Shown here piece after piece: positions 1 to 5,940 of a DNA stretch of 6,144 nt; the stretch's first letter is position 1; every line of letters starts with the position of its first letter. The notes beneath the pieces were generated by a model that worked only from the letters and a program-made list of their open reading frames with translations, had not been told where the DNA came from and did not search any database. The position numbers and the translations under genes are program-made. The DNA is from Eubacterium sp. (lineage in GTDB: Bacteria > Bacillota_A > Clostridia > Lachnospirales > Lachnospiraceae): the NCBI GenBank assembly GCA_017475785.1, contig JAFVEX010000035.1:1-6144 (forward strand), given 5' to 3'.

Positions 1-336
1 GACCTGCCGGAATACCTCAAGCATGGCTGCATTTTCCTCTTCATCAGGCTTAACAACCACGCGCTGGCCCCTGACTCTGTCCTGGATTACCTCACCTTCT
101 CCGCTCTCTTCCTGCTCACGCAGCAAGACGTTCAGGTAATTGAACGGAATCTCGATGCCCTGCCTGGACGTCAGATGGATGTATCCATGCCCGTATTGCT
201 CCGCCACTTCCGTAATTGCCGCGAGCTGTCCGGCACTGACCTGTCCGCCCGTCACAGCCAGACGCAGGGAAAAATGATCCTTTTGCTTCTGCCGCATGAA
301 GCCGCCTTTTTTCAGGGTTGCGTAATCCGTCGCCAT
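1..336 (-). CDS. Nitrite/sulfite reductase-type protein, N-terminal part (3' end outside window)
   Basis: This gene runs off the window after 112 codons. The N-terminus matches the ferredoxin-like half domain of sirohaem nitrite/sulfite reductases: KKGGFMRQKQKDHFSLRL at residues 9-26, then GG at 30-31 and HLTSRQGIEIP at 54-64, the conserved arginine-containing strand of this family. By family knowledge it would reduce sulfite to sulfide in the cytoplasm; the Fe4S4 cysteines and sirohaem site would lie beyond the window and cannot be verified. Two in-frame ATGs exist, at 342 and 336. I chose 336 because the purine-rich GGAAGGAA at 350-343 sits at a normal distance from it and almost touches the 342 start. 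It follows tusA by 27 nt and is probably cotranscribed. Residues 73-103 form an acidic, charged stretch where I would have expected the chain to move quickly towards the first cluster cysteines. Its position in the operon fits the sulfide-supplying role of Sir in the Wolinella homocysteine pathway. Confidence 0.8.
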   Translation of the reverse strand, partial: MATDYATLKKGGFMRQKQKDHFSLRLAVTGGQVSAGQLAAITEVAEQYGHGYIHLTSRQGIEIPFNYLNVLLREQEESGEGEVIQDRVRGQRVVVKPDEEENAAMLEVFRQV

Positions 337-363
337 AACCATTTCCTTCCGTTTAAATCATCT

Positions 364-615
364 TTAATCGCCGCTTTTCTGTACATACAGCTCATATGTG
401 CCGTCACCGTTATCCGACAGCCTGAGAACCTTATGTCCCTCGTCCTTCACGCTTCTGGGCACATTCTGCACCGGTTCCCCGTCATTCAGACGAACATCCA
501 GAATTTCCCCGTCCTCCAGTTCTTCTAGCGCGACCTTTGTTTTGACGAACGTCACAGGACAGACCACGTCTGTGATATCCACATATGCGTCCGCTTTAAT
601 GTCCAAACTGCTCAT
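364..615 (-). CDS. tusA: TusA/SirA-family sulfurtransferase-like protein with CPVT motif
   Basis: This 83-residue protein has the TusA/SirA/YedF layout: a first strand at about 11-16, the reactive cysteine C19 followed by P20, a long helix (KTKVALEELEDGE), a strand (ILDVRL), then the VPRSVKDEGHKVL helix and a final strand. Family members carry sulfur as a persulfide on this cysteine. The usual signature is CPxP; here it reads C19-P20-V21-T22, so the second proline is replaced by threonine. GGAGGAG at 629-623, 7 nt before the ATG, is a strong ribosome binding site. The gene lies 99 nt after hcyD and 27 nt before the sulfite reductase gene, so I infer a role in sulfur delivery to or from the thiocarboxylate pathway. 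The true partner is unknown, and the gene may be a paralogue not involved in tRNA thiolation. The fold call is firm; the specific role is inferred. Confidence 0.85.
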   Translation of the reverse strand: MSSLDIKADAYVDITDVVCPVTFVKTKVALEELEDGEILDVRLNDGEPVQNVPRSVKDEGHKVLRLSDNGDGTYELYVQKSGD

Positions 616-639
616 GATATAACTCCTCCGTCAGGAACA

Positions 640-668
640 AATCTACGACCCATCACTTGTTATGACAA
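640..668 (-). promoter_or_regulatory. Candidate internal promoter before tusA
   Basis: On the minus strand, TTGTCA (668-663) and TAGATT (645-640) are separated by exactly 17 nt. The -35 matches consensus in five of six positions and the -10 in four of six. Transcription would begin roughly 18 nt before the tusA start codon, just ahead of its ribosome binding site. It could let tusA and the reductase gene be expressed apart from the upstream genes. A chance match is quite possible. Confidence 0.3.
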
Positions 669-714
669 CTGTCTGTTTTGATCCTCTCTCTGCCACACAG
701 ACTGCCTGTTATGA

Positions 715-1149
715 TCATCCTTCTGTTATAATCAATTCTTCCTTCCGGACGATCCGGTTTTCGGCATCTTCTCCCTCGATGTGAAACGCGTTCAGAACGG
801 GTTCGTCCTTCTTTTCCAGCGACAGGATCAGGTATGTCGCGCCGCTGTCGTTTGCAAGCCGGATATCCTCTCTGGAAGGCCTGGAAGGGGTTTCCGGGTG
901 CGAGTGCCAGTTTCCCAGCGGCGCCAGCCCCTCCTTCCGCATTTCTCTGACTGCCGACAGCTGCTCCCGCGGATCGATGGAAAAATGTTCGCTGCTGTGA
1001 TCGATGTTTGTCAGCAGGTAAACCTTTTCGATTATCCTCGCGTCCTCGCCGTCTCTTCCGGCGACCAGTCCGCAGGCTTCGTCCGGCAGCTGCTGCAGGG
1101 CATGCAGGCAGAGTCTGTCATAGTCCGATTTTCGAATGATTACTCTCAT
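715..1149 (-). CDS. hcyD: JAMM/MPN+ zinc metalloprotease, HcyD/Mec+-like
   Basis: This 144-residue protein is a stand-alone JAMM (MPN+) domain, the usual size for bacterial Mec+/HcyD-type enzymes. The full catalytic set is present: E24 in DEACGL, the zinc-binding H82 and H84 in WHSHP, S92, and D95 in the SxxD tail. Related enzymes cut next to the C-terminal glycines of small ubiquitin-like sulfur carriers. Mec+ of Mycobacterium releases cysteine from CysO, and HcyD of Wolinella first trims the carrier and later frees homocysteine. The metY, carrier and E1 neighbours favour the HcyD role. The ribosome binding site is weak (GAGAG at 1160-1156), and between the hcyF stop and this start lies a tandem repeat array, so its translation may be tuned separately from the E1. 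The protein is predicted to be cytoplasmic, with no signal peptide or membrane segment. Family assignment is firm; substrate is inferred from context. Confidence 0.88.
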   Translation of the reverse strand: MRVIIRKSDYDRLCLHALQQLPDEACGLVAGRDGEDARIIEKVYLLTNIDHSSEHFSIDPREQLSAVREMRKEGLAPLGNWHSHPETPSRPSREDIRLANDSGATYLILSLEKKDEPVLNAFHIEGEDAENRIVRKEELIITEG

Positions 1150-1161
1150 CGCAGGCTCTCT

Positions 1162-1278
1162 TTACTCTTTCTTTTTCAGCTCTGACTCTTTCTTTTTCAG
1201 CTTTTAATCTTTCTTTTTTAGCTCTTAATCTTTTTTCAGCTCTTAATCTTTTTTCAGCTCTTAATCTTTTTTCAGCTC
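1162..1278 (-). repeat. Six-unit in-frame tandem repeat of the hcyF 3' end
   Basis: Read on the minus strand, six head-to-tail units start with (G/A)AGCT(G/A)AAAA. Units 1-3 (1278-1261, 1260-1243, 1242-1225) are identical 18-mers, GAGCTGAAAAAAGATTAA. Units 4-6 (1224-1204, 1203-1183, 1182-1162) are 21 bp with an extra lysine-type codon and some substitutions. Unit 1 is the end of hcyF itself (Glu-Leu-Lys-Lys-Asp-stop). All lengths are multiples of three, so every copy stays in the hcyF frame; each ends in TAA except unit 5, which ends in TCA. The array fills nearly the whole hcyF-hcyD gap. It looks like slippage or unequal-crossover expansion of a gene end, with the hcyF-proximal copies the most recent. 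Confidence 0.93.
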
Positions 1279-2073
1279 ACAGGCAGCCTGCTCATAGTCA
1301 ATCAGTTCTGTGATGGCCGGCGTGTCAGAACAAACCGCGCACCCGTTTCCGCGCGGCGGAAGCTTGATCTTCCGGAATTCCATGGTCAGGGCGTCGTACG
1401 TCAGGAGATAACCGGCCAGCAGTTCGCCTGTGCCGGTCAGGTATTTGATTGCCTCCATCGCCTGGAGCGACCCGATCACTCCGCCCATCGCGCCGATGAC
1501 GCCGGCTTCTCTGCACGTCGGCACCGCGTCCTTTGGGGGCGGGCTGTTGAAAATACAGCGGTAACACGGACTCTCGCCCGGAAGAATCGTCGTCAGCTGC
1601 CCCTTAAAGCGAATGATCCCGGCGTGCGACAAGGGTTTCTTTGCCATCACGCAGGCGTCATTTATCAAGAATTTTGCAGGAAAATTGTCTGTCCCGTCAA
1701 GTACGAAATCGTAATCCGCGATCAGGTCCAGGATGTTTCCGCTGTGAACGAACGTGTGGTATGTGTTTACCGTCACGTCCGGGTTGATTTTCCGAATCGT
1801 CTCTGCGGCAGATTCCACCTTCTTTTTCCCGATGTCTTCTGTCGTGTGGATGACCTGTCTCTGCAGGTTAGAGAGATCCACCACGTCCGCGTCCGCGATT
1901 CCGATGGTTCCGACGCCTGCCGCTGCCAGATAGAGAGCAGCCGGCGCGCCGAGACCGCCGGCGCCGATGATCAGCACCTTCCCGCCCAGCAGCTTTTTCT
2001 GTCCTTTGACGCCGATCTCCTTCAGGATAATATGTCTGGAGTAGCGCTCCAGCTGTTCATTGGTAAATGCCAT
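1261..2073 (-). CDS. hcyF: E1-like adenylyltransferase (ThiF/MoeB/HesA family), HcyF-like
   Basis: This 270-residue enzyme has the complete MoeB/ThiF layout. The ATP-binding loop is GAGGLG at 37-42. The DADVVDLSNLQRQ segment (61-73) contributes D61 and the arginine finger R72, and K85 sits in GKKKVESA. TDN at 128-130 contains the magnesium-binding aspartate. Two CxxC pairs, C170/C173 and C245/C248, form the structural zinc site. C187 in PTCREAGVIG aligns with the catalytic or sulfur-transfer cysteine of ThiF. There is no rhodanese domain, so it is the short form. By family it adenylates the C-terminal glycine of a ThiS/MoaD-like carrier, activating it for thiocarboxylate formation. The start overlaps the hcyS stop in TAATG, with its ribosome binding site inside hcyS. 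The local context lacks thiG/thiH or moaE, so thiamin or molybdopterin synthesis is less likely than the homocysteine role. The last codons seed the tandem repeat downstream. Confidence 0.9.
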   Translation of the reverse strand: MAFTNEQLERYSRHIILKEIGVKGQKKLLGGKVLIIGAGGLGAPAALYLAAAGVGTIGIADADVVDLSNLQRQVIHTTEDIGKKKVESAAETIRKINPDVTVNTYHTFVHSGNILDLIADYDFVLDGTDNFPAKFLINDACVMAKKPLSHAGIIRFKGQLTTILPGESPCYRCIFNSPPPKDAVPTCREAGVIGAMGGVIGSLQAMEAIKYLTGTGELLAGYLLTYDALTMEFRKIKLPPRGNGCAVCSDTPAITELIDYEQAACELKKD

Positions 2074-2282
2074 TATCTCGCGCCTCCGCCCATAAAATAA
2101 AGAAATTCTATTTCGTCGCCTTCCTGCAGCCTGCGGCCGGCAAAAAAGCCGGACTCCACAAACTCTTCGTTGACTGAGACCGTGACGTACTGGGGCGTCT
2201 CCACCTTTTCCTGCTCGATCAGTTCAGCGATAGTGATGCCGTCTTTTACTTCCTTCTTCTCTCCTGCTACATGGATTATCAT
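2073..2282 (-). CDS. hcyS: ThiS/MoaD-like sulfur carrier with Gly-Gly-Gly-Ala-Arg end, HcyS-like
   Basis: This 69-residue beta-grasp protein has the ThiS plan: an opening strand pair (IIHVAGEKKEV), the first helix (TIAELIEQEKV), a strand (YVTVSVNEEFV), and the LQEGDEIEFLYFMGGG tail. ThiS proteins typically end on the glycines; here G65-G66-G67 is followed by A68-R69. A capped carrier cannot be adenylated until the cap is removed, which matches the adjacent JAMM protease and the single-alanine cap reported for Wolinella HcyS. After trimming, the exposed glycine would become a thiocarboxylate that passes sulfur to O-acetylhomoserine on MetY. Its ATG overlaps the metY stop (ATGA), with a GGAGAGGAG ribosome binding site about 9 nt upstream inside metY, so translation is probably coupled. 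It could be mistaken for ThiS, but no thiazole synthase gene is nearby. Confidence 0.88.
   Translation of the reverse strand: MIIHVAGEKKEVKDGITIAELIEQEKVETPQYVTVSVNEEFVESGFFAGRRLQEGDEIEFLYFMGGGAR
2083..2090 (-). promoter_or_regulatory. hcyF ribosome binding site inside the hcyS glycine codons
   Basis: The minus-strand sequence GGCGGAGG lies 9 nt before the hcyF ATG at 2073. These bases are the codons for G65, G66 and most of G67 of the carrier. The catalytic glycine tail therefore doubles as the Shine-Dalgarno sequence of the next gene, and the stop and start overlap as TAATG. The two-codon Ala-Arg cap and the stop provide the remaining spacing. Confidence 0.75.
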
Positions 2283-3535
2283 TTCGGTGACTCCTCTCCA
2301 TTATGATCTTCTGCCGCCAGAACTGCCCTTCTGAAATCCTCTGTCAGATCCCGGCTGTCTTCAATTCCCACACTGACCCGTATTGTATCTTCATAGACGC
2401 CCGCCGCTTCTCTTCTTGCGTCGGCACACCCGGCGTAGATCGTCGACGCCGGATGAATCACCAGCGTTCTCAGGTCTCCGATATTGCTCGCGATCCGCGC
2501 GTATTTCAGCTGATTGATAATCTGAAATGCCTTCTTCTTCGATCCGGCCCGGAAATTCAGAATGCCCCCGCCATATCCGTTGAGCACCTTCTCCGCCAGC
2601 GCATGATCCGGATGATTCGGGAGAGTCAGGTAACTGACCTCTATGCCCGGGATCTCATCGAGCGCTCTCGCCAGCGTGTCTGCATTCCGGCAGATCCTTT
2701 CCATCCTAAGACCCAGGGTATCCAGGCCGATATAACTCAAAAACGCGTTCGCCGGCGCCATGCAGCCGCCCAGGTTTTCCCAGAGATCTGTGCGGAGACG
2801 GATCAGAAACGCCCGCTTTCCGAACGGGGCAAATTCTCTCAATGCCGTGTGTTTTTCAAAATCCCAGCAGAACCTTCCGCCGTCCACGATAATCCCGCCG
2901 ATGGAGTTGCCTCCGCCGTTGATGTATTTGGATGTGGAATGGATCACCACGTCGGCACCTTCCGATAAAGGCTTTGCCAGATATGGCGTCGCGGTCGTCG
3001 CGTCAACGAACAGCGGAATTCCTGCCCTGTGGGCAATCCCGGACACGGCAGAGATATCCATCACCTTCAGCGCCGGGTTGCTGATCAGTTCTCCGAATAT
3101 GACTCTTGTCTTTTCAGTAATTGCTTCTTCAAGACCCGGCCCGGCGAGATTGTCCAGAAAAACGGTGTGGATGCCCAGCTGTTCAAAGTCGTGAAATAAG
3201 TTCAGCGTTCCTCCGTACAGGCTGCTGCCTGCGATAATCTCATCCCCGCTGCGGCAGACAGACAGAAGCGCTGCCGTGACGGCGGACATCCCGCTGCTGG
3301 TACAGACAGCGCCCGCGCCGCCTTCCAGTTCATTGATGCGCTGCTCAAACGCGGTCAATGTCGGGTTGCCGATGCGGGTATAGGCATAGCCCGGCCGCCT
3401 GTGGGCAAAGACCTTTTCCAGATCTTCCATCGTCTCGTATTGAAAAGCAGTAACCTGTGAGACAGGGGGAAGGATCTCTCCATTGCTATAGCCGCCGGAA
3501 TTCACACCGTGCAGTAATTTTGTGTTGAATTCCAT
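2279..3535 (-). CDS. metY: O-acetylhomoserine sulfhydrylase (Cys/Met metabolism PLP enzyme)
   Basis: This 418-residue enzyme is a Cys/Met-metabolism PLP family member of the MetY type. From the chosen start, the opening is MEFNTKLLHG, as usual for the family. GYAYTRIGNPT (49-59) holds the conserved Tyr and Arg that bind cofactor phosphate across the dimer. SSGMSA (80-85) caps the PLP phosphate, D178 in DATTATP contacts the PLP nitrogen, and K203 in STSK is the Schiff-base lysine. R386 in IRVSVGIE should bind the substrate carboxylate. It would join sulfur to O-acetylhomoserine to make homocysteine, here probably from the HcyS thiocarboxylate rather than free sulfide. I chose the ATG at 3535 because GGGAGGAGGAG at 3555-3545 sits 9 nt upstream. 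The frame stays open to an ATG at 3637, which would add 34 charged residues but has no ribosome binding site. The stop overlaps the hcyS start. Confidence 0.9.
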   Translation of the reverse strand: MEFNTKLLHGVNSGGYSNGEILPPVSQVTAFQYETMEDLEKVFAHRRPGYAYTRIGNPTLTAFEQRINELEGGAGAVCTSSGMSAVTAALLSVCRSGDEIIAGSSLYGGTLNLFHDFEQLGIHTVFLDNLAGPGLEEAITEKTRVIFGELISNPALKVMDISAVSGIAHRAGIPLFVDATTATPYLAKPLSEGADVVIHSTSKYINGGGNSIGGIIVDGGRFCWDFEKHTALREFAPFGKRAFLIRLRTDLWENLGGCMAPANAFLSYIGLDTLGLRMERICRNADTLARALDEIPGIEVSYLTLPNHPDHALAEKVLNGYGGGILNFRAGSKKKAFQIINQLKYARIASNIGDLRTLVIHPASTIYAGCADARREAAGVYEDTIRVSVGIEDSRDLTEDFRRAVLAAEDHNGEESPK

Positions 3536-3714
3536 ATGCAGTATCTCCTCCTCCCGGTCCGAAATGCCGCAGGACTTTAAAAACGCGGTGAACTGATTGT
3601 CCCGATCTAACTGATCGTCCTGATCTTTATTGAGCATACAGCAGAGTGCCCGCCCGCGTAAAATACTTAGGATTTAGAGAACATTCTCAAAATGTTTGAT
3701 AGCATATACCGCGA
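3536..3714 (-). promoter_or_regulatory. Spacer between lysR and metY with operator-like elements
   Basis: These 179 nt separate the lysR stop from the metY start. They hold an inverted repeat AACATT-N5-AATGTT (3680-3696), an overlapping imperfect palindrome GAGAACATTCTC (3678-3689), and a motif ATAGCATAT (3699-3707) that is repeated upstream of lysR. A possible promoter starts with TTGAGA (3690-3685) on the minus strand, but its -10 (TATTTT with 19-nt spacing) is poor, as would suit an activator-dependent promoter. No intrinsic terminator is visible, so read-through from lysR is also possible. Nearer metY, the frame is open from 3637 to the start codon. Confidence 0.5.
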
Positions 3715-4626
3715 TTACGAGAAGCTGTTTTTGAGCGCCTCAATGTAATGCTCGCACATCTGACTTGGCACGCAGTTTTTCTTGATGATATAGCCGATTA
3801 CCATCACGGCGTTCTGATTGTTCTCGTCTTCTCTGAACGGGACAACCACGCAATTGTTGCCATTCAAATCTCCGGAAATAATCCCGGAACACAGGGTATA
3901 CCCATTCAGGCCTGCCATCAGATTCAGCATGGTCGACCGGTCATTCACCTTTACCGTCTGCGGGTATTGCTTTTCACTCAGAATTTCTTCGGCAAAATAA
4001 AATGCATCATCCTCCTGCTCAAAGGAGAGGCAAGGATAATCCATCAGCTGTTCCATGCCGATCGATTCCTCCCCGGCAAGCGGATGGTTTTTCCAGAGAT
4101 AGACATACGCCTGGCACTCCACCAGCGGATAGAATTCCAGTTCCTGCTCTCCCAGATATTTGCGCAGCACCTTCTCATTCGCGGCGGACATATAGATTAC
4201 ACCGATCTCACTTCTGAGGGAACCGACATCTCTGATGACCTCCTTCGTCTTCGTCTCGCGGATCGCGAAATCGAATTGCTTCATGTCATACTGCTTTGCC
4301 ATATCCACAAACGCTTTCACGGCAAATGAATAATGCTGTGTGGAGACGGCAAATTTGCGCTTATAATTTCCCTCGCCCTCGTATTTACTGAGGACCATCG
4401 CGTAATGCTGATAGAATATCCGGATATCCGTCAGGAATTCTCTGCCTTCCGGCGTAACGGTCACGCCTCTGTGCGTTCGATGAAAAATTGTGATACCCAG
4501 TTCATTCTCCAGCTCTTTGACTGCGCTCGTCAGTGTCGGCTGGACGATGAAGAGTTTCTCCGAAGCCTTGTTCATAGACCCGCATTCTTCGATGGTCAAT
4601 ACGTATAAGATCTGCTGTAAAGTCAT
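3715..4626 (-). CDS. LysR-type transcriptional regulator
   Basis: This 303-residue protein has the LysR layout. The N-terminal winged helix-turn-helix covers about residues 1-60, with MTLQQILYVLTIEECGSMNKASEKL leading into the recognition helix around QPTLTSAVKELE (29-40), then the wing FHRTHRGVTVTPEGREFL. A linker helix follows to about 88, then the two-lobed effector domain. I prefer the ATG at 4626 because MTLQQ is the typical LysR opening; an ATG at 4644 would add six residues, and neither start has a strong ribosome binding site. It lies directly upstream of metY in the same orientation, so it probably controls the homocysteine operon in response to a sulfur or methionine-pathway signal. 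O-acetylserine or O-acetylhomoserine are known or plausible LysR effectors in such pathways, but nothing in the sequence identifies the ligand. LysR regulators are often divergent from their targets; here it leads the cluster instead. Confidence 0.9.
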   Translation of the reverse strand: MTLQQILYVLTIEECGSMNKASEKLFIVQPTLTSAVKELENELGITIFHRTHRGVTVTPEGREFLTDIRIFYQHYAMVLSKYEGEGNYKRKFAVSTQHYSFAVKAFVDMAKQYDMKQFDFAIRETKTKEVIRDVGSLRSEIGVIYMSAANEKVLRKYLGEQELEFYPLVECQAYVYLWKNHPLAGEESIGMEQLMDYPCLSFEQEDDAFYFAEEILSEKQYPQTVKVNDRSTMLNLMAGLNGYTLCSGIISGDLNGNNCVVVPFREDENNQNAVMVIGYIIKKNCVPSQMCEHYIEALKNSFS

Positions 4627-4698
4627 ATCATCCCCATCTTTCATAGAAAGACTCGCAGATATTCTGCATTCGTTCTTACTTTTTATCTTTCCGCTGTT

Positions 4699-4773
4699 CT
4701 ATATCATATATTTTCGATATGTTTTATATGTATAGCATATTTGCGATGGTTTTTCAACTTCTTTTACAAAAGA
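4699..4773 (-). promoter_or_regulatory. lysR promoter with overlapping inverted repeats
   Basis: On the minus strand TTGAAA (4757-4752) and TATACA (4734-4729) are 17 nt apart, a plausible sigma-A promoter about 100 nt before the lysR start. The -10 lies inside an imperfect AT-rich inverted repeat, CTATATCATATA (4699-4710) against TTATATGTATAG (4724-4735). Just upstream of the -35 is a second palindrome, TCTTTT-AC-AAAAGA (4760-4773). The layout fits autoregulation by the LysR protein. The rest of the 4627-4837 gap is AT-rich, with no gene visible. Confidence 0.55.
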
Positions 4774-4837
4774 TACCTAATCCTGATCATCAAAAAAACT
4801 TATAATAAACTGCCGGGCAGCCACTTTTTTACGTGCG

Positions 4838-4870
4838 AAAAAACCGGCACCCTTTTGTAAAGGATGCCGG
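4838..4870 (-). terminator. Rho-independent terminator of the tRNA-Arg unit
   Basis: On the minus strand CCGGCATCCTTT (4870-4859) pairs over 12 positions, with one G-U pair, with AAAGGGTGCCGG (4855-4844) around a three-base ACA loop. Six T residues (4843-4838) follow directly. It starts 12 nt after the mature tRNA end and insulates the sulfur genes from the tRNA transcript. There is no T-tract on the plus strand, so it is unidirectional. Confidence 0.92.
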
Positions 4871-4881
4871 CCGGCTTTCTA

Positions 4882-4954
4882 CACGCCTGGAGGGAATCGA
4901 ACCCCCGACACACGGTACCGGAAACCGTTGCTCTATCCACTGAGCTACAGACGC
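4882..4954 (-). tRNA. tRNA-Arg with CCG anticodon
   Basis: A full 73-nt cloverleaf can be drawn. The acceptor strands are GCGTCTG and CAGGCGT; U8-A9 are followed by the D-arm GCTC/GAGC. The anticodon stem is ACGGT/ACCGT around loop TTCCGGT, giving anticodon CCG, which reads CGG arginine codons. The variable loop has 5 nt, and the T-arm GGGGG-TTCGATT-CCCTC is canonical. The discriminator base is G. The 3' CCA is not encoded (TAG follows), so it must be added by a nucleotidyltransferase, as for many Firmicute tRNAs. The terminal acceptor pair is G1-U72, a wobble. Confidence 0.95.
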
Positions 4955-4995
4955 AGATACAGGGAGGGACTTCTTCGTCCGCCTGCAACGTTACG

Positions 4996-5024
4996 ATCAT
5001 AGCACAGGGATGAAAGATTGTCAA
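4996..5024 (-). promoter_or_regulatory. Near-consensus promoter of the tRNA-Arg gene
   Basis: A perfect TTGACA -35 box (5024-5019) and TATGAT -10 box (5001-4996) lie on the minus strand with an ideal 17-nt spacer. Transcription should start near 4989, about 35 nt before the tRNA 5' end, leaving a leader for RNase P to remove. The -35 begins one base after the DUF5688 stop codon, so the tRNA is a separate unit. Confidence 0.9.
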
Positions 5025-5025
5025 A

Positions 5026-5940
5026 CTAACTGTTCCTGATTTCTCCGGATTTTTCTCCTGTGAGCAAAAGCATCTGCTTTTCTGCGCAATCATAATAGTA
5101 CAGATTGTCGGAGAGCACTTCCTGCGGCGCGACCTGTGTGCGGTTGATCTCTCTTACCATCGCAAGAAGAATGGCTTCATCCCACACTTCATCTTTTGCC
5201 AGAATCAGGCACTCGTGAATACTGCTTGGCAGAACATAGTAGTCCCCCTGCATCCATTCCCCGATACGCCGCTGCATCGTCTCATCGGCGATCAGCACTG
5301 CTCCAAACGTCTTATTTTCATTCGTAAGAAGATACAGCGGTGAGGATTCTCCGTCATAAAGCTGGATGGAGTTCATCTCCTGAAGCACACTGCCGAGCGT
5401 CCGGAACACAGGCTTCATAGAAGAACAGGTTCTGCGCCAGGCCTCTTCCAGAAGTTCTTTTTCACTGATGTTCCACTGCCGCACATGCTCCCTGCTGATC
5501 AGGATCGAAGCATCCTGTATGATGGCGGAATCCACCTGATAATAGCTGACCAGCGCAAGATCATTCCATCTGGTGTGCGGCACCTGCTGCAGAAGCTTCT
5601 GGTTTTTCTCGTAATTGATCAGCTTGCAGAAGATGCTGCCCCGGACCTCTGTGTAGCACAGAAAAAAATTCCTTGGCATTTCCCTGCGCGCATTGTACTG
5701 CTCACACTGTTCCAGAAGATGATCCGCCAGCTGTGATACCGGCATGCCATTCTGATACTGCGTGTAGTACGGCTCCATATAAATAGAAGGATACAGGCCG
5801 CTTCTGCCTGCGCTGATTTCCATCGCCCGTCTCCGGATTCCGTTGTTTTTCGTGATGGTCTGAAGCCTGACGTCGATCTTCTCCTTCGCCTGAAGCCGTA
5901 CTGCTTCCGCAAGTGCTTTTTGAAACTGCAAAAAATTCAT
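5026..5940 (-). CDS. DUF5688 family protein, function unknown
   Basis: This 304-residue protein resembles the DUF5688 proteins that occur, often in several copies, in Lachnospiraceae and relatives. Their function is not known to me. Family-like segments are an N-terminal MNFLQFQKALAEAV helix, IYMEPYYTQYQNG (53-65), NFFLCYTEVRGSIFCKLINY (91-110), NQKLLQQVPHTRWNDLALVSYY (113-134), LPSSIHECLILAKDE (237-251) and EVLSDNLYYYD (274-284). There is no signal peptide, membrane segment or recognisable catalytic motif, so it is probably cytosolic. I chose the ATG at 5940 because AAGGAGGA lies directly upstream at 5952-5945; the frame stays open to 6027, adding 29 residues that do not look like the family. 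It stands apart from the sulfur genes, with the tRNA unit between, and has no evident link to them. Confidence 0.75.
   Translation of the reverse strand: MNFLQFQKALAEAVRLQAKEKIDVRLQTITKNNGIRRRAMEISAGRSGLYPSIYMEPYYTQYQNGMPVSQLADHLLEQCEQYNARREMPRNFFLCYTEVRGSIFCKLINYEKNQKLLQQVPHTRWNDLALVSYYQVDSAIIQDASILISREHVRQWNISEKELLEEAWRRTCSSMKPVFRTLGSVLQEMNSIQLYDGESSPLYLLTNENKTFGAVLIADETMQRRIGEWMQGDYYVLPSSIHECLILAKDEVWDEAILLAMVREINRTQVAPQEVLSDNLYYYDCAEKQMLLLTGEKSGEIRNS

Follow-up and report, generated by a model that had tools for sequence, protein, structure and literature searches.

A probable operon for sulfite-fed homocysteine synthesis through a protein thiocarboxylate, with TusA as candidate sulfur relay and an encapsulin context in its relatives

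The window analysed here, a 6,144-nucleotide stretch of contig JAFVEX010000035.1 from Eubacterium sp., probably holds a sulfite-fed operon for homocysteine synthesis of the protein-thiocarboxylate kind. The genes all lie on the minus strand and follow each other in the direction of transcription: a LysR-type regulator, MetY, a HcyS-like sulfur carrier, an E1 enzyme, a JAMM metalloprotease, the sulfurtransferase TusA and the start of a sulfite reductase (Sir). The order from MetY to Sir, without the place of TusA, had been described in a first-pass annotation made from the letters alone, and it holds, with open frames and clear family matches. The same is true for the overlap of the first genes, which measures 4 nt between MetY and HcyS and 1 nt between HcyS and the E1. 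With E1, JAMM and MetY in one set, the N-terminal 114 amino acids of Sir beside them and a carrier tail that continues past the glycines, the annotation's reading of a HcyS/HcyF/HcyD/MetY/Sir system for protein-thiocarboxylate homocysteine synthesis is well supported.

The catalytic residues of the set are kept. The carrier (2073 to 2282) is a protein of 69 amino acids from the ThiS family (PF02597, TIGR01683). It ends in FMGGG-AR; the glycine end is therefore blocked and trimming by a protease is required. The HcyF-like E1 adenylyltransferase (1261 to 2073; ThiF/MoeB family, PF00899 at 291 bits) contains Cys187, in the position that we take to be that of the sulfur-acceptor cysteine of ThiF and MoeB, and a family search matched no rhodanese domain in this enzyme. 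In the HcyD-like JAMM protease (715 to 1149; PF14464) the motif HSHPx6SxxD is intact. MetY, a HcyS-type O-acetylhomoserine sulfhydrylase (2279 to 3535, the frame being open to 3637), matches PF01053 at 347 bits and TIGR01326 at 399 bits, under the cut-off of 495. TusA (364 to 615; PF01206 at 73 bits) has the active-site motif CPVT. The siroheme sulfite reductase (1 to 342) is cut by the window end, and its first 114 amino acids match PF03460 (60 bits) and the N-terminal part of TIGR02912; in relatives the full-length Sir comprises NIR_SIR plus 4Fe-4S domains.

In the proposed pathway, the JAMM protease would remove the residues past the glycine end of HcyS, and the E1 would adenylate the exposed end. 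Sir would reduce sulfite, and TusA would deliver that sulfur as persulfide, via Cys187 of the E1, to yield HcyS-COSH. MetY would then join HcyS-COSH to O-acetylhomoserine. Finally, the JAMM protease would cut HcyS-homocysteine and thereby set homocysteine free. We infer every chemical step, above all the passage of sulfur via TusA rather than as free sulfide.

The closest known system is the HcyS/HcyF/HcyD/MetY/Sir homocysteine pathway reportedly described by Krishnamoorthy and Begley in 2011 for Wolinella succinogenes, where a blocked-tail carrier, a rhodanese-less E1, JAMM, MetY and Sir are likewise said to stand together. The window differs in its carrier tail (GGG-AR, as against a single alanine reported for Wolinella) and in the LysR gene preceding the operon. 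The mycobacterial CysO-CysM-Mec system reportedly shares the carrier thiocarboxylate and the release of the amino acid by a JAMM protease; unlike that system, the window has MetY and neither a cysteine synthase nor ClpS. In the available part of Iyer et al. 2006 (PMC1779556), the row related to CysO-CysM-Mec is 4d, while row 4e lists ThiS/MoaD, JAB, E1, SirA, sulfite reductase and O-acetylhomoserine sulfhydrylase. The window equals row 4e in gene content, including SirA (TusA) and an E1 without rhodanese. No sulfate activation or transport genes lie inside the window; relatives such as L014 carry them upstream or downstream.

The conservation of the set was followed in two samples. The main one consists of the best 80 of 502 loci from a JAMM scan, picked by similarity; the less selected one is a draw of 291 Clostridia genomes, seed included. 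The relatives are mostly draft metagenome-assembled genomes (MAGs), so absences are weak, and thresholds differ between the searches. HcyS counts refer to the 76 loci with HcyS within the fetched DNA, TusA counts to 79 evaluable loci (L003 being truncated) and genome-level counts to 79 genomes, as L017 and L076 belong to one genome. The order HcyS-E1-JAMM is kept in 76/76 loci, which excludes a chance arrangement. Residues beyond GGG are present on HcyS in all 76 relatives, GGG-R being the commonest tail (50/76). The JAMM metal motif is intact in 80/80 loci, and the E1 cysteine (PTC motif) is retained in 77/79 relatives, the remaining two being cut by contig ends.

TusA had been regarded in the first-pass annotation as an addition to the Wolinella set. 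It is not, because Iyer et al. 2006 (PMC1779556), in the part available, state that neighbourhoods of this kind "always contain a SirA" (TusA) with a predicted rhodanese-like role, and their list covers Wolinella as well as several low-GC Gram positives. Conservation of tusA beside the set, a check that the annotation had proposed, was indeed found: JAMM is immediately followed by tusA, in the same orientation, in 71 of the 79 evaluable loci. Eight loci depart from this. In L026, L052 and L070 tusA stands at another place in the locus, and in L059 it lies beside sir on another contig. In L025 (7442-8554), L063 (3094-4200) and L068 (4314-5420) a rhodanese-TusA-DsrE fusion occupies the slot after JAMM; L018 is taken up below. 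A fourth such fusion replaces tusA near 7222 of L113, and three further genomes (G013, G025 and G026) carry TusA domains, in frames of similar length, at other places. In the class draw JAMM is present in 10 of the 291 genomes (9 without the seed, one of these being cut at a contig end), and a TusA domain belongs to the cluster in 8/8 evaluable loci, once as a rhodanese-TusA-DsrE fusion and in L116 and L117 at 43-45% identity. The active-site motif of TusA is CPxP. The window protein has the PF01206 fold and the cysteine, with Thr in place of the second proline, and CP[VI]T is found in 75/75 of the relatives' copies.

Given the pathway, a sulfur relay through TusA is somewhat more likely than not, on circumstantial grounds, and the placement of TusA in relatives together with its replacement by the fusion supports, without proving, a relay of the persulfide kind. 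An alternative that has real weight, though short of probable, keeps the same pathway but lets free bisulfide from Sir attack HcyS-AMP directly. TusA would then be otherwise employed, as partner or product carrier of Sir, in tRNA thiolation or in supply at low sulfide. TusA adjoins Sir in all 14 loci with Sir, with gaps of 5-64 bases between match ends, a finding that speaks for either reading, and in L008, L009 and L012 genes resembling nifS and mnmA by sequence follow Sir. Against free bisulfide, TusA remains beside JAMM in loci without Sir, and the fusion stands in the tusA slot in 3/8 genomes in which neither Sir nor encapsulin was found versus 0/71 others (Fisher p = 0.0007). Since L063 and L068 are close copies of each other, the independent cases are fewer than three. 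The L113 genome likewise showed neither Sir nor encapsulin. Several points weigh against the relay through TusA. The Wolinella reconstitution reportedly converted HcyS with sulfide and did not include TusA. Some genomes have Sir without an adjoining TusA, the sole TusA of G012 being about 209 kb from Sir, and in the draft genome of L018 no TusA was found. Among the literature matches listed, no title links TusA to HcyS, and no experimental test of the predicted role of TusA in this set was found in the literature.

The MetY of the window shares 69% identity with the MetY of the L010 genome cluster and no more than 37% with the other paralogues compared. In 39/80 loci a HcyS-type MetY (60% identity or more to that of the window) was found. 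As an alternative, the carrier could, like CysO, serve cysteine synthesis, or it could serve both amino acids if MetY also used O-acetylserine. This is unlikely. It would agree with the gene directly before HcyS, which encodes a serine O-acetyltransferase in 46 of 76 loci (a desulfurase in 10 and MetY in 9), and with the four loci L008, L009, L012 and L023, where HcyS and Sir are present and no MetY is nearby. In the window, Pfam and NCBIfam searches found no cysteine synthase and MetY overlaps HcyS, both of which argue against it. The thiocarboxylate route to homocysteine need not stand alone. Several PF01053 proteins are present in each of the 20 relatives' genomes searched, and the first-pass annotation had proposed to see whether other homocysteine routes are lacking. 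They are not in G001, G003 and G010, where canonical O-acetylhomoserine sulfhydrylases (563-635 bits, cut-off 495) coexist with the set; this check covered 13 stretches from four genomes, 10 of which were family-scanned. The HcyS route is therefore not the only possible homocysteine route of these three relatives, a point against the operon reading, and HcyS as sole route is unsupported.

It is very improbable that carrier and E1 work in thiamine or molybdopterin synthesis with an ordinary sulfhydrylase alongside, although the carrier passes the TIGR01683 'thiS' cut-off and the E1 the MoeB subfamily model NF004281, since full-length ThiG was found in only two of 20 relatives' genomes (MoaE was not searched), both of which have a second, separate ThiS beside ThiG, HcyS is the sole ThiS/MoaD-family match in 10/20 genomes, and the blocked tail and the JAMM after E1 recur in 76/76 loci. 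A Pfam search found no ThiG in the window. The genes thus do not resemble a set for thiamine, and in the relatives searched HcyS is not the thiamine carrier.

In many relatives, the module is preceded by a second gene set that consists of MetY, a second JAMM, a MoaD-E1-rhodanese fusion, a family 2A encapsulin shell, an encapsulin-type cysteine desulfurase and a serine O-acetyltransferase. The window itself has no encapsulin gene. The shell shares one cluster with the HcyS module in 49 of the 80 loci, mostly accompanied by its desulfurase and a serine O-acetyltransferase, and in all 49 it lies upstream of HcyS in the same orientation and within 7 kb. Counted over the 80 loci, contig edges included, the desulfurase is found in 55, the acetyltransferase in 52, the fused E1 in 47 and Sir in 14; shell and Sir occur in the same locus only once (L035). 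The cluster in L010 (542-5905) combines the shell (NF041162 at 487 bits, above the cut-off of 380), the desulfurase cargo (NF041166 at 775 bits, under the cut-off of 800), the serine O-acetyltransferase and two carrier/E1/JAMM sets, with MetY where the contig reaches, as in the other 48 shell loci. These 48 shells share 81-97% identity with the L010 shell, as compared to 50-64% in four unlinked Clostridia loci.

The second carrier of these clusters is part of the fusion (L010:976-2433 and relatives), in which an internal AGG end stands beside the second JAMM gene. The MoaD part has the AGG end followed by a linker in 44/47 matches, the other three being cut, and in 41/42 cases the metal motif is present in the JAMM protein that accompanies the fusion. 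The second carrier may therefore need release from its own E1. The rhodanese cysteine loop is present in 47/47 fusions with a wider motif and in 2/47 with a stricter one. In L056 an encapsulin-type desulfurase and a serine O-acetyltransferase lie beside the module, and no shell gene was found in that genome.

At the genome level, the shell is present in 60/79 relatives versus 5/291 genomes of the class-wide draw, seed included. A general tie of encapsulin to the module was rejected, as the four non-seed shells of that draw are unlinked: no JAMM, HcyS or TusA match was found within the 12.7-18 kb fetched around them, and L122 has a weak E1-like match (32%, 105 bits). A clean exclusion between Sir and encapsulin was rejected likewise. 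The 79 genomes divide into 40 with encapsulin only, 20 with both, 11 with Sir only (the Sir count including the three partial matches L037, L050 and L067) and 8 with neither (Fisher p = 0.065).

Family 2A encapsulin shells are reported to store elemental sulfur, and their link with the module suggests that cysteine sulfur may be passed on to homocysteine. A joint reading for rumen Lachnospiraceae, and by gene transfer for some Gram-negatives, can be offered tentatively, its chance being not far below even. The encapsulated desulfurase would strip cysteine of its sulfur, which the shell may store; rhodanese or TusA would draw this sulfur onto HcyS, and MetY would make homocysteine. The window would then be the sulfite-fed version of one interchangeable system, in which TusA would serve as the shared adaptor. 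If true, this would amount to a cystathionine-independent route from cysteine to homocysteine and to a defined outlet for encapsulin sulfur. The conserved link in relatives offers a concrete and testable candidate destination for the sulfur of the compartment.

The encapsulin context of the relatives is notable and, as far as the literature searches showed, unreported; TusA in the set is already known. No report of an encapsulin link to the thiocarboxylate homocysteine module was found, with most subscription papers and all supplements beyond reach. Operons that join an encapsulin to desulfurase, serine O-acetyltransferase and rhodanese genes have already been published (PMC8346489). The relatives resemble such family 2A desulfurase encapsulins, as far as these are described in the accessible text, in combining shell, cysteine desulfurase, serine O-acetyltransferase and a rhodanese domain, and differ in adding two carrier/E1/JAMM sets, TusA and MetY (PMC8346489, PMC8049743). 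Neither ThiF nor homocysteine occurs in the main text of these two papers.

The Clostridia background given in the first-pass annotation was borne out, as protein relatives and the tree both point to a Lachnospiraceae-like source. Where named by source, the protein relatives (best 120 of 4987 and best 120 of 3501) are Lachnospiraceae, with one Butyrivibrio and one Eubacterium. A quick tree of HcyS, E1 and JAMM contained 81 rows (75/80 loci, the window and 5/9 class-draw loci), 34 of its 78 inner branches being weakly supported. On it the window groups with L013, L014 and L022 (SH-aLRT 95), loci that have CysN or AprAB-CysDN, plus MetY, upstream. Encapsulin and Sir contexts are mixed on the tree, with 10 and 8 changes, respectively, at least 2 and at least 3 of them being required by strongly supported branches; five unlabelled rows were uncounted. 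The carrier core thus seems to have switched its sulfur source more than once while TusA was retained. The pathway, elucidated in a single epsilonproteobacterium, appears to occur widely among rumen Clostridia, where TusA is a near-constant part of it.

The whole cluster was also seen in Ruminobacter MAGs, beside LpxK, CRP-family and cytidylyltransferase genes, and in MAGs that bear the labels proteobacterial, Aeromonadales and planctomycete (L016:7828-11748, and also L019, L042, L071, L028 and L037). On the tree, L016, L019 and L042 fall into a single clade with a support of 100. A movement of the cluster between phyla in the rumen is probable. In L008 a PF03601 membrane protein (4243-5613) lies between a LysR fragment and HcyS and could be a sulfur-compound transporter.

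The regulator gene of the window (3715 to 4644; PF00126 and PF03466) lies upstream of the operon on the same strand; no NCBIfam equivalog was above its cut-off among the matches listed. Upstream of the gene set a tRNA-Arg and a DUF5688 gene are found. MetY probably starts at 3535 rather than 3637, given that the ATG there has a GGAGG-type ribosome site in front of it and that an identical database protein (P0001) has 418 amino acids. Sir probably starts at about 336. In a search for an RNA element in the metY leader, Rfam matched only the tRNA, and a promoter scan gave an uninformative 7 sites versus 5.6 expected. Between LysR and the likely MetY start, an 18-base unit occurs twice (3591-3626); it may be a regulator site or chance, and the pair is absent from the output of a repeat finder set at 14 bases. 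Between the E1 and JAMM genes lies a tandem array (1162-1278) with units of 18 and 21 bases, in which the unit is a copy of the 3' end of the E1 gene including its stop codon.

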